Of a stretch of 20,164 nucleotides of DNA, positions 3,191 through 6,932 are shown in pieces (within the stretch, counting starts at the first letter, position 1; every line of letters begins with the position of its first letter). Position numbers and translations under genes: made by a program. The notes below the pieces were generated by a model. It was not told the DNA's origin. It searched no databases and saw nothing but the letters and a program-made list of their open reading frames with translations. Origin of the DNA: a virus; the IMG/VR virus record IMGVR_UViG_3300042923_001796, positions 1 through 20,164 of that record; one strand, written 5' to 3'.

Positions 3191-3225
3191 GTGTTAAATA
3201 AATCTAAATAAATGAGGTGGTGATT

Positions 3226-4065
3226 TTGGCAAGAGGTAGAAGCCCTAACAGAGATAAAGCCTTCGACGTTTATAAAAAGCATAAGGGGAAGATTAAGAAT
3301 AAAGATATTGCCGAAATGCTCCATGAGGATCCTAAAACAGTGTCTAAATGGAAGACGTTAGATAAGTGGGAAGAGCGATTAAGTAATTCGAAAAAAGAAA
3401 AAGGAAATTCGAAATTCGAAAAAACTAATAATACTGCTGAAAATGAAGTGCTGAAAGGTGAGGTTTTTGATGATCTAAATGAGATAGTAGAAAACGTCGA
3501 CTTAAATGAGAAGCAAATTCTTTTTTGCATTTATTTTATAAAGTCTTTTAATGCTGCAAAAGCATATCAAAAAGCATACGGGTGCGATTTGGTTTCGGCA
3601 TATACTGCCGGCTCAAGATTGTTAAAGAATGTTCATATAAATATGGCTATAGAAAAGATGAAACAGAATAGATTTAGTCAGGCCATGCTAAGACCAGAAG
3701 ATATAGTCCAAAAATATATAGATATTGCTCATTCAGATATTACCGATTATATAACTTTTGGAAAGAAACAAGTGCTTACGGGATTCACAAAAGAAAAAGT
3801 AGCCATTTATGAGAATATCAATTATGTGGATTATAAAGAGAGTATAGATATAGATGGCACTTTGATCACGGAATTTAAGGAAGGTAAAAATGGTTTCTCA
3901 ATTAAATTAATGAATAGGGAAAAGGCACTTCAGTGGTTATCTGATCATATGGATATGGCTACAGAAGAGCAAAAAGCTAGAATAGATCACCTTAGAAACA
4001 AAGTAAAGGTTGATAATGAGACTCTTGAAATCAAAAAGAAACAAGCAGAAAAGGATGATTGGTAA
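3226..4065 (+). CDS. PBSX-type terminase small subunit-like protein
   Basis: Start chosen at TTG 3226: AGGTGG (3215-3220) lies 5 bases upstream, while the in-frame GTGs at 3217/3220 fall inside that ribosome site. This gives 279 aa beginning MARGRSPNRDKAF, typical of the family. Residues about 20-45 form a helix-turn-helix (KNKDIAEMLHEDPKTVSKWK), followed by a Lys/Asn/Ser linker. About residues 90-215 match the Terminase_2 type (LNEKQILFCIYFIKSFNAAKAYQKAYG, ... RPEDIVQKYIDIAHSDITDYI). The C-terminus is charged and helical. Such proteins recognise phage DNA and load the large terminase. A second, P27-like candidate sits directly before the large subunit, so the division of labour is open. First gene after the late leader. 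Confidence 0.8.
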   Translation: MARGRSPNRDKAFDVYKKHKGKIKNKDIAEMLHEDPKTVSKWKTLDKWEERLSNSKKEKGNSKFEKTNNTAENEVLKGEVFDDLNEIVENVDLNEKQILFCIYFIKSFNAAKAYQKAYGCDLVSAYTAGSRLLKNVHINMAIEKMKQNRFSQAMLRPEDIVQKYIDIAHSDITDYITFGKKQVLTGFTKEKVAIYENINYVDYKESIDIDGTLITEFKEGKNGFSIKLMNREKALQWLSDHMDMATEEQKARIDHLRNKVKVDNETLEIKKKQAEKDDW

Positions 4066-4778
4066 TGAGTACTGGAGTATTGCATGCCTTCTATAATTCC
4101 AAAGAGTGGCTGACATTCAGGGAAATATATATATTAAAACATATCAAGCAGCACAACGGAGTTATATGCTCTGCATGTGGTAAGCATATTGTCGACCGTG
4201 GAGACATACAGCTGGACCATTATCCAATTGAGCTTACCGAAGATAACTATAAAGATGTCAATATATCGATGAATGAAGAGAATATAGAATTGAAATGCAG
4301 GAGCTGCCATAACAAGCGGCATGGAAGGTTTTCCGGTGGTGGGCATAAGAGAAAAGAAAAGGCGGTGTATCTGGTATATGGACCGCCATTGGCAGGTAAG
4401 ACAACTTATGTCATAGAGAACATGGAACCTGGAGATATGGTTGTAGATATGGACAGGCTATATCAGGCCATAAGTATGCAGCCTATGTATGATAAACCGG
4501 ATAACCTTAAGTACAATGTATTCTCTGTTCGCAATCATATCACAGAGAATATTAGGACAAGGTATGGAGGCTTTCGTACCGCATGGATCATAGGAGGATA
4601 TCCAGAGAAGTTTATTCGTGATAAGCTGACAGAAGACTTAGGGGCGGAGCTGATCTACCTAGAGACACCTAAGGAGTTATGCTTTGCGAGGTTGGATGAA
4701 TGTAATGATTATAGGTCCGATCATAAAGACGAATGGAGACAGTACATAGATAAATGGTTCGAAGATTATTCGAATTAA
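4065..4778 (+). CDS. HNH endonuclease fused to a P-loop kinase-like domain
   Basis: Start ATG 4065 shares one base with the previous stop (TAATG), after an AAGGATGA ribosome site. 237 aa in two parts. Residues 1-88 are an HNH nuclease: Cys35/Cys38 and Cys78/Cys81 as the zinc knuckles, D51-H52 as the first catalytic pair, N73, and H82/H86 in CHNKRH. Residues about 100-237 hold a Walker A motif GPPLAGKTT (G106 to T114, K112), then VVDMDR (D128, D130), and a later kinase-like segment (ELIYLETPKELCFARL). HNH proteins next to terminase genes take part in cos cleavage and packaging in HK97-like phages. The second half looks like a small nucleotide or polynucleotide kinase; its substrate is unknown. 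No frameshift joins the halves, so it is a true fusion. Confidence 0.85.
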   Translation: MSTGVLHAFYNSKEWLTFREIYILKHIKQHNGVICSACGKHIVDRGDIQLDHYPIELTEDNYKDVNISMNEENIELKCRSCHNKRHGRFSGGGHKRKEKAVYLVYGPPLAGKTTYVIENMEPGDMVVDMDRLYQAISMQPMYDKPDNLKYNVFSVRNHITENIRTRYGGFRTAWIIGGYPEKFIRDKLTEDLGAELIYLETPKELCFARLDECNDYRSDHKDEWRQYIDKWFEDYSN

Positions 4779-4890
4779 TATATCCCCCGTGCCTGTCTTT
4801 TTGTTTTGTCCAAAGGACCGTAGGAGGATGAAGGCATTTGTGAGACAAACTGAAATTTTGACTTTTTTCTAAAAAGATTTGCAGAAAGCT
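4779..4890 (+). other. Intergenic gap between HNH and TerS genes: cos-site candidate
   Basis: About 110 bases without a convincing gene between the HNH nuclease and the P27-like TerS. It begins with a GC-rich stretch, CCCCCGTGCC (4784-4793), in a very AT-rich neighbourhood, and further on holds TAGGAGGATGAAGG (4821-4834) and the T-rich GACTTTTTTCT. In HK97-type phages with an HNH gene the cos site commonly lies in this gap. That is inference from position and composition; the cut itself cannot be read from the sequence. Confidence 0.35.
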
Positions 4891-4900
4891 GGTGATGTTT

Positions 4901-5215
4901 TTGGATATAAAACAAGAGTATGAGAGAATCAAAGAGTTATTCAAGGATTGTGATGATAATCAGCTAGCTTTGTTGGATGGATCCTTTTGGGAATGTGCAA
5001 GGTTAAGAGTTGAGCTCAATGATTTGCATGATATAGTTAAGAAATCAGGACTGGTTAAGGTTAATCCAAAAAACCCAAGTCAGCAATTAGAGCTGCCGGT
5101 ATCCAAATTAATAGTAAGAGTAAGAGCAAATTACTTAAATTATATAGCAAAACTATCTAATATTTTAGGTAAAGTAGTTTCTGAAGAGGATGATGAACTT
5201 GAAGACTACGAATAG
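4901..5215 (+). CDS. P27-like terminase small subunit
   Basis: Start most likely TTG 4901, with GGTGAT (4891-4896) 4 bases upstream, the same arrangement as other TTG starts here; ATG 4895 is the alternative and would add two residues. About 104 aa, acidic at the C-terminus (EEDDELEDYE). Helical throughout, with GLVKVNPKNPSQQLELPVSKLIVRVRANYLNYIAKLSNILGK resembling the Terminase_4/P27 pattern of a 'NP' turn followed by a long helix ending near LG. It lies directly before the large subunit and its 3' end overlaps that gene. Large subunits of the Terminase_1 class usually pair with P27-type partners, which supports the call. The match is by pattern only; it could be an uncharacterised terminase accessory protein. 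Confidence 0.6.
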   Translation: MDIKQEYERIKELFKDCDDNQLALLDGSFWECARLRVELNDLHDIVKKSGLVKVNPKNPSQQLELPVSKLIVRVRANYLNYIAKLSNILGKVVSEEDDELEDYE

Positions 5216-6932
5216 TTACATATTAGAGTATTACGAAGAAATAAAAGCCGGCAATATCATTGTTGGTCAAGAGCTTCTAATGATGCTCAAGAAGTTAGTT
5301 GATGAAGTTCAATGCAGAAATGTATTAAGGAATAATATCCGGATAGATTTTGATGACTCTGAAAAGAGAATTAAATTCATAGAAAAGGAATGTAAACACT
5401 ATGAAGCACCTCATGCCGGTAAGCCTTTTATTCTAGAACTTTTTCAGAAAGCATTTATAGAGTCAATATTTGCAATTAAAATATATGATGAAGAATTGGG
5501 AAGGTACGTTAGGAAATATCAAAACGTACTTTTTTTAGTGGGAAGAAAGAACGGAAAGACACCGCTGATAGGAGCCATTTGCCTTGCAGAGTGGTTTTGC
5601 GGTCCGGCTGGATTAAAGATACTATGTGCTTCGAATGATTATGATCAGGCTGATCTGATGTTCCAGGCAATCAATAATATGAGAGAAGAAAGTAAGACTC
5701 TCGAAAAGGTAACTAGAAAAAATAATAAAGGTATCTTCTTTGGAAATCTAAAGCAGCAGAAAAAGAAAGGCAAGTTCACTAAGCAGAATAAGGGAAATAT
5801 TAAAAAATTATCTGCAAGAGCGAATGCTAAAGAAGGTAGAAATATAGGTATCGGCGCAGTAGATGAAGTATTTGAAATGGAAGATAACAGTTTAGTAATG
5901 CCGATCAGGCAAGCTTTATCGACTCAGGATGAACCGTTGTACTTTGAATTAACTACGGAAGGATTTACAAACGGTGGGTACCTGGATGAAAGACTGATTG
6001 AAGCTAGACAAGTGCTTAAAGGAGAATTAGAAAATGAGAGATGGTTAATATGGCTATACACTCAGGATAGTGAAAAAGAGGTATGGAGTAATGAGAGCAG
6101 CTGGTTTAAATCCAATCCGGGACTAGGTAAAATCAAAAAATGGTCTTTCCTTCGTCAGATGGTCCAGGAAGCAAGGACAAATTCAAGTACTAAAGCATTC
6201 GTTCTTGCTAAGGATTTTAATGTTAAGCAAAACAATGCCCAGGCATGGTTACAACCAGATGATATCAAGAATGATCTGACCTATGATATGGAAGAGCTCA
6301 GAGGATGCATATCAATTGGTGGTGTGGATTTGTCTGAGACGGGTGACCTTACTAATGCAAGAGCATTAATTCTTAAACCAAATTCGAAAACTAAGTACTT
6401 CATTACCAAGTATTTTATCCCAAGCTCCAAACTTGAACAGATGGAGGGAGAAGAGAAAGCAAAATACATGAAATGGGTAAAGGATGGCTACCTGATAATA
6501 TGCGATGATACAGAGGTCAATCAATCAGATGTAGTAGCTTATTTTGTAAAGCTATTTAAGACATATAAAATAATGACTATCAGAACAGGTTATGATAAAT
6601 GGCAAGCCAAGGCTTTTAAGAATGAAATGACAGATTATGGCTTTGATATTGAGAAGATTGAACAGGGTTATGATTTGTCGAATGCCATGACAAGCTTAGA
6701 GACCGATCTGAAAGCAAAGAATGTTAACTTCAATCAGAATCCGATAGACATCATGTGCTTAGAGAACGTAGCCGCAAGGTGGAATTCGAAAGGAACTAAA
6801 AGAATGCCTGAAAAAGTTCAAGGAGATTACACTAAAAAGATTGATGGTGCTGTTACGATGCTTATCTGCTATGAAACATTAGATAGATATAGAAAAGATT
6901 ATATGGATTTAATAAATAAGAACAGGAGGTGA
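5199..6932 (+). CDS. Terminase large subunit
   Basis: Start chosen at TTG 5199 (MKTTNSYILEYYEEI): GAAGAGGA (5183-5190) lies 8 bases upstream, whereas ATG 5190/5193 are too close to any ribosome site. 577 aa, normal for the Terminase_1 / HK97-type family. The ATPase half has the Walker A-like VGRKNGKTPL (about 114-123) and Walker B with catalytic Glu in IGIGAVDEVFEM (D222, E223). The nuclease half has the acidic residues of an RNase H-like fold: D377 in GGVDLSETGDL, D383, and D549 in KKIDGAV. It drives DNA into the prohead and cuts it to length, working with the small subunit and probably the HNH protein. Overlaps the previous gene by 17 bases, so translation is coupled. Confidence 0.95.
   Translation: MKTTNSYILEYYEEIKAGNIIVGQELLMMLKKLVDEVQCRNVLRNNIRIDFDDSEKRIKFIEKECKHYEAPHAGKPFILELFQKAFIESIFAIKIYDEELGRYVRKYQNVLFLVGRKNGKTPLIGAICLAEWFCGPAGLKILCASNDYDQADLMFQAINNMREESKTLEKVTRKNNKGIFFGNLKQQKKKGKFTKQNKGNIKKLSARANAKEGRNIGIGAVDEVFEMEDNSLVMPIRQALSTQDEPLYFELTTEGFTNGGYLDERLIEARQVLKGELENERWLIWLYTQDSEKEVWSNESSWFKSNPGLGKIKKWSFLRQMVQEARTNSSTKAFVLAKDFNVKQNNAQAWLQPDDIKNDLTYDMEELRGCISIGGVDLSETGDLTNARALILKPNSKTKYFITKYFIPSSKLEQMEGEEKAKYMKWVKDGYLIICDDTEVNQSDVVAYFVKLFKTYKIMTIRTGYDKWQAKAFKNEMTDYGFDIEKIEQGYDLSNAMTSLETDLKAKNVNFNQNPIDIMCLENVAARWNSKGTKRMPEKVQGDYTKKIDGAVTMLICYETLDRYRKDYMDLINKNRR

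Follow-up and report, generated by a model that had tools for sequence, protein, structure and literature searches.

The window analysed here, a 20,164-nt stretch of viral DNA (IMG/VR record IMGVR_UViG_3300042923_001796), encodes a 237-aa protein (4065..4778, + strand) in which an HNH nuclease is fused to a P-loop kinase domain of the polynucleotide kinase (PNK) fold, and a predicted cos element follows its gene. We consider it reasonably probable that this protein serves a cos-type packaging machine as its HNH component, with a PNK-fold kinase domain appended. The HNH half very probably works with TerL to nick the cos element, which lies 40 nt past the end of its gene, and so gives a 3' overhang of about 11 nt. 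Some role of the kinase half at the packaged DNA end is also fairly probable, and a true DNA 5'-end kinase is possible if somewhat doubtful.

The ATG start of the gene lies at 4065; the mechanically defined ORF begins earlier, with a TTG at 4059. The ORF, Pfam, PHROG, AlphaFold2 and fold searches together define an HNH domain (aa ~8-90; 4086..4334, + strand) that a flexible linker joins to a P-loop kinase domain (aa 97-237; 4353..4775, + strand), and in the AlphaFold2 model of the window protein (pLDDT 92.5, pTM 0.62) linker residues 90-96 scored below 50. The HNH half matched Pfam HNH with E 0.0015, which is below the cut-off of that family, as well as several PHROG HNH families. With a 120-sequence profile it matched 5h0m, the packaging HNH nuclease of phage GVE2, at E 9.6e-7; the window sequence by itself gave no useful match in the PDB. 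The alignment for structure work comprised the window protein and 119 of the 143 relatives listed. Zinc cysteines and catalytic residues had been claimed for this half, and C35/C38, C78/C81, H52, N70/N73, H82 and H86 are indeed in place: H52 and H82 are found in 146/146 distinct relatives, N70 in 144/146 and C35, C38 and C81 in 140-142/146. Lactococcal relatives of the HNH half are labelled homing endonucleases, a reading against which the fixed position of the gene and its conservation in multiple lineages argue. The HNH half is instead reminiscent of HK97 gp74 and GVE2 HNHE, which share the zinc cysteines, a gene beside the terminase and a cos phage with a 3' overhang; these proteins are HNH only, whereas the window protein has a kinase domain fused behind the HNH. 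HK97 gp74 is described as promoting TerL cleavage at cos and the HK97 3' overhang as being 12 nt long (PMC9410871), and GVE2 HNHE as nicking DNA (PMC5304195).

In a phage collection, 473 records matched the window protein, 22 of them over at least 80% of its length, and most of the remaining matches covered the HNH part only (e.g. in Lactococcus phages). Scanning with profiles confirmed 233 relatives among viral contigs and 107 among sequenced genomes; from each source 80 were kept, together with two phage records. This survey of how widespread the fusion is placed it at 164 loci encoding 146 distinct proteins, almost all from Bacillota, and its recurrence in all three kinds of source rules out an assembly artefact. 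Residue counts and the tree described below are based on the 146 distinct sequences. Four loci (L159, L173, L177 and L186) come from bins labelled as Nanoarchaeota, Saccharibacteria, Bacteroidaceae and Bacteroidales; they are probably mis-binned phage contigs, and L173 ends at cos.

The suggestion that the protein takes part in cutting at cos is strongly supported and sharpened because a cos element, missed in the original prediction, sits 5-90 nt after the stop codon. This predicted element (4784..4868, + strand) is conserved in 11 aligned relatives and was defined from these and from contig ends. In the window it consists of a C-run (4784-4788), a core (GGACCG, 4815-4820, read as GGAC|CG) and the tail ATTTTGACTTTT (4853-4868, AAATTTTGACTTTTTT), and the window and its relatives share the order of C-run, GGACCG-like core and tail AATTTTGACTTTT behind the stop codon. 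A run of at least five Cs within 70 nt of the stop codon occurs at 82/146 loci as compared with 72/16,254 background tiles. A strict version of the whole pattern was found downstream of the gene in 78/139 loci, upstream in 0/138 and on the reverse strand in 6/139, with a shuffle mean of 0.65; it begins within 60 nt of the stop codon in 53 of the 78 and otherwise further on, behind small genes. The strict pattern was missed in 61/139 loci, in some of them owing to its strictness.

Contig ends of relatives coincide with this element. Fourteen contigs break off within 600 nt of the stop codon, eight of them at the same position of the element and six elsewhere. The contig end is the AC of the core in L064, L075, L081, L089 and L164 and the equivalent AAG in L173, and L087 and L088 terminate likewise, past one extra small gene. 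Three contigs, L087 (37,843 bases), L088 (55,321) and L068 (49,555), have the HNH-kinase at their right end and TerL at their left. Of the 23 contigs that start no more than 1400 nt ahead of the post-cos gene, 15 begin 44-60 nt before it, ten at exactly 54 nt. The left ends of L087, L088, L068 and these 15 contigs mostly lie 21-22 nt before the tail. The distance from core cut to tail in intact copies is 32-33 nt in 26 of the 42 scored (14 of the 56 intact copies went unscored, and the short distances in 16/42 are probably later ACCG matches), and in the window itself it is 34. Between the right and the left contig ends of relatives 11 nt are therefore missing; they are lost rather than duplicated, as would be expected if a 3' overhang had been trimmed. 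By homology with these ends we predict a cut at 4818|4819, with the right virion end at 4818, the left near 4830 and a 3' overhang of 11 nt (11-13 possible) at 4819..4829. Cos-type ends near the gene are thus seen in relatives as contig ends and in the window by homology. Annotated genome ends agree in two phages: BFK20 has a 13-nt 3' end just behind its HNH gene, and Mbo4 a 3' overhang just behind its kinase-HNH gene. The nicking role given to the HNH half rests on gene position, nuclease residues, the cos element and the ends of relatives, and co-operation with TerL is extrapolated from HK97 gp74. Similar cos elements are found in the HNH-only phages L005, L211, L214 and L215; therefore the kinase is not needed for cutting, and the idea that this type of cos requires it was rejected.

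The second half was claimed to contain an intact Walker A and a DxD-like motif, and both are present, as GPPLAGKT (G106 through K112-T113; aa 106-113, 4380-4403) and D128/D130, with R185 and R209 as further residues of the pocket. The fold and family evidence excludes a Walker motif arising by chance. When the proposed structure prediction and fold search were run, polynucleotide kinases came first, with other kinases scoring about as well. The best Foldseek match of the kinase model was 4gp6 (E 1.1e-5), and comparison by VIA with 4xrp gave a Z of 13.1 over 133 residues (rmsd 2.5) and with T4 Pnk one of 12.8, but PFK-2 (12.5) and PSTK (12.1) were tied or nearly so. The structures nearest to the model are those of Pnkp1, T4 Pnk and Clostridium Pnkp, and PFK-2 and PSTK lie no more than about 1 Z behind. 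Alignment with T4 PseT by hhalign (probability 88, E 3.5e-6) pairs K112, T113, D130 and R209 with T4 K15, S16, D35 and R122, of which D35 is the general base and R122 a lid residue. The likeness to T4 Pnk (PseT) and Clostridium thermocellum Pnkp thus extends over the fold, Walker A, the general-base Asp and the first lid Arg. In contrast, R38, D85 and T86 of T4 Pnk, its acceptor-binding residues, are replaced by Y133, G178 and Y179 in this one alignment. The window kinase further differs from T4 Pnk and Pnkp in that no phosphatase or ligase partner was seen, in its place within a packaging module and in the frequent decay of the P-loop in relatives. The label of polynucleotide kinase therefore holds as far as fold and the catalytic-base and lid residues are concerned, but the acceptor residues differ and PFK-2 and PSTK fit about as well; phosphorylation of DNA ends by the kinase half is no more than plausible.

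Across the 146 distinct relatives, G106, P108, D124 and R185 are invariant, and D128 (143), D130 (144), R209 (140) and K112 (139) are nearly always kept. The Walker Lys is followed by Ser or Thr in 94/146; in 45 the Lys stands without Ser/Thr and in seven it is absent, so that 52 sequences are degenerate. Absence of the Walker Lys from close homologues had been named as evidence against a kinase, and here the result is divided: all close relatives keep the Lys, but the closest of them, at 81% identity, has lost the Ser/Thr (GKI), and the pair is damaged in 52/146. In a quick tree of the 146 sequences the intact state changes 25 times, at least 15 of these changes being forced by well-supported branches. 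The 52 degenerate kinases nonetheless retain the rest of the pocket (D130 and R185 in 52/52, R209 in 51/52, D128 and C206 in 51-52/52), and their pairwise identity over the kinase domain (0.60) is no lower than that of the intact set (0.48). Repeated loss of the Ser/Thr with retention of D130, R185 and R209 indicates that the nucleotide-holding loop decays repeatedly and the rest of the pocket is held. In L052, L059 and L120 (Paenibacillus and viral contigs) the Walker Lys is replaced by His plus two acids in an otherwise intact gene; the variant reads GHED (CHED in L059) and possibly reflects altered use of metal or ligand.

This pattern of decay is what favours the main rival to an end-acting kinase, namely that the domain is a pseudo-enzyme or structural adaptor which docks the HNH on terminase, portal or DNA, phosphoryl transfer being irrelevant even where the P-loop is intact. 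The recurrent losses, the preserved pocket, the undiminished identity of the degenerate set and the GKI of the closest relative would all be accommodated. However, Lys with Ser/Thr is kept in most relatives, the Lactobacillus, staphylococcal and actinophage kinases that we retrieved keep Walker A save in split or frameshifted halves, and a pure adaptor would have no need of the base Asp. We regard this explanation as rather unlikely.

Kinase relatives in other arrangements were collected by tblastn, and the same kinase proved to be repeatedly recombined with HNH in different orders, which supports a packaging role. The HNH-kinase order is found in the window family, Lactobacillus phages and Gordonia McGonagall; the kinase-HNH order in Staphylococcus IME1354_01 and, judging from match position and annotation, in Gordonia Moosehead and Eyre and Rhodococcus Mbo4; and separate adjoining genes in BigNuz (gp81/82) and M. 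abscessus prophages. Corynebacterium phi16 encodes a kinase-RapZ_C-HNH protein (ORF101, L030:3998-5092). In CL31, clg_01 (L276:63-1334) joins two tandem kinases and an HNH in one protein, the last gene before the genome end. In a further set of phages the kinase is linked to the prohead protease rather than to HNH: it is fused N-terminally to the serine protease (Peptidase_S78) in BFK20 gp5 (L273:3772-4824), annotated as a structural protein, and in the staphylococcal phage vB_SauS_308 (L275:4685-5704), and phi673 and phi674 have the same arrangement as judged by position. The RapZ_C domain (PF22740, above cut-off) lies inside the phi16 fusion and beside the kinase-protease in BFK20 gp4 (L273:3494-3775), echoing the pairing of a P-loop domain with RapZ_C in cellular RapZ.

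Actinophage genes named polynucleotide kinase (BigNuz gp82, Moosehead gp76, Eyre gp73) belong to the same kinase family and stand just before the genome end; they adjoin or are fused with HNH, mostly as a separate gene or in the opposite order to that of the window. Moosehead gp76 and Eyre gp73 also carry the note 'HNH endonuclease', so the pairing had been annotated before. The 'terminase small subunit' of Lactobacillus phages A2, LJ and PL-1 has the HNH-kinase architecture of the window at about 25% identity, and in A2 and PL-1 no other gene separates it from the end of the record. The A2 gene is split (ORF60/61, L025:2512-3314) and relatives about 97% identical have one ORF, which is probably explained by a frameshift in the record.

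This placement bears on a second alternative, in which the kinase repairs or modifies a target other than cos (nucleotides, RNA ends or damaged DNA, perhaps in counter-defence) and has merely hitched to the late operon. T4 Pnk acts in tRNA repair as counter-defence and RapZ is an RNA adaptor; the best fold matches are the T4 Pnk and Pnkp1 RNA-repair kinases, RapZ_C has been added in two Corynebacterium phages, and the acceptor-site residues are unlike those of T4 Pnk. Against this, one search, whose 60 records were reduced to 44 distinct phages by removing duplicate accessions, placed the kinase within 1000 nt of the right end of the record in 25/44; of the other 19, 13 are prophages, three have the protease fusion, JustASigh has the kinase at 1,426 nt, and two have records that seem not to have been opened at cos. 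Moreover, packaging or head proteins and the RapZ_C domain were the only fusion partners seen for the kinase. Its constant place at cos and its fusions to the prohead protease speak for a role in packaging or in the head over the anti-defence step that had been proposed, which received no specific support, and we judge the alternative improbable.

The original description of an HNH and a kinase in one chain next to the terminase is confirmed by the gene order of the window: TerS candidate (Terminase_2 type, 3217..4065, + strand; PF03592, E 2.1e-31), HNH-kinase, a 107-aa protein (4892..5215, + strand; PHROG 1066, found behind cos in most relatives), HK97-like TerL (5190..6932, + strand; PF20441/PF03354, PHROG 9), portal, prohead protease and capsid. 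TerL lies downstream of the HNH-kinase gene in 134/161 loci. A tyrosine integrase gene (139-1149) lies a short way upstream of the late packaging genes, in the same orientation. A Terminase_2 gene precedes the HNH-kinase in only 46/146, and a relative of the 107-aa protein follows it in 103 loci, 133 having at least 600 nt of room. The 107-aa protein may be the true small terminase; hhalign gave no support for one of the A2, BigNuz or BFK20 type. That the HNH-kinase is itself the small terminase, as its match to PHROG 4581 'terminase small subunit' (E 8.8e-47) and the same label on A2, LJ, Lrm1 and other phage records would have it, is very improbable and was rejected, because a Terminase_2 protein is already encoded just upstream, A2 and LJ each carry a separate small terminase beside TerL, and HNH and kinase account for the whole length, with no terminase or HTH domain matched in Pfam or NCBIfam at E 0.1; the label looks positional.

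Our preferred explanation is therefore that of a packaging protein whose two halves serve the same DNA end. The HNH half and TerL would nick cos, leaving the overhang of about 11 nt, and the kinase half would act within that complex or the head, most likely through binding to the 5' ends that arise at cos; action on these ends is the simplest common factor for the kinase. In lineages with an intact P-loop, the window included, it may phosphorylate 5'-OH ends, so that the injected genome could be ligated into a circle, and in lineages with a decayed P-loop the domain probably retains only a binding or structural role. HNH nucleases and terminases would be expected to leave 5'-phosphates on the ends they cut, so that the need for a kinase is unexplained. 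As HNH-only relatives have a similar cos and cuts by such nucleases should already bear a 5'-phosphate, the kinase may safeguard or hold the ends instead of being needed for the cut, and the proteins in which it is joined to the prohead protease suggest that presence in the packaging or head complex is what matters. More broadly, we tentatively propose that the module belongs to the cos packaging and head-assembly machinery of many Bacillota and Actinomycetota phages, has been repeatedly fused, in several orders, to HNH or prohead protease, acts on or holds packaged 5' ends and in several lineages has become a pseudokinase with its substrate pocket retained.

HNH nucleases are established in cos packaging, and the window protein is of this known kind with a kinase fused. 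Its recurrence, its position at cos and the decay of its P-loop were not found described in the literature searched; that literature, to which two PNAS papers of 2014 about HNH proteins in packaging did not belong, gave no account of an HNH-kinase packaging protein. The same place at cos in many domain orders, the protease fusions and the decay of the P-loop with the pocket kept indicate that the domain is of importance in packaging or the head, and that ATP-dependent phosphorylation alone does not account for its role in every lineage. If the broader proposal above is true, packaging in these phages would include a step of DNA-end phosphorylation or end-holding that is not known from model phages. 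Finally, with the cos element virion ends can be predicted for many Bacillota phages and prophages whose records call this gene 'terminase small subunit' or give it no name.
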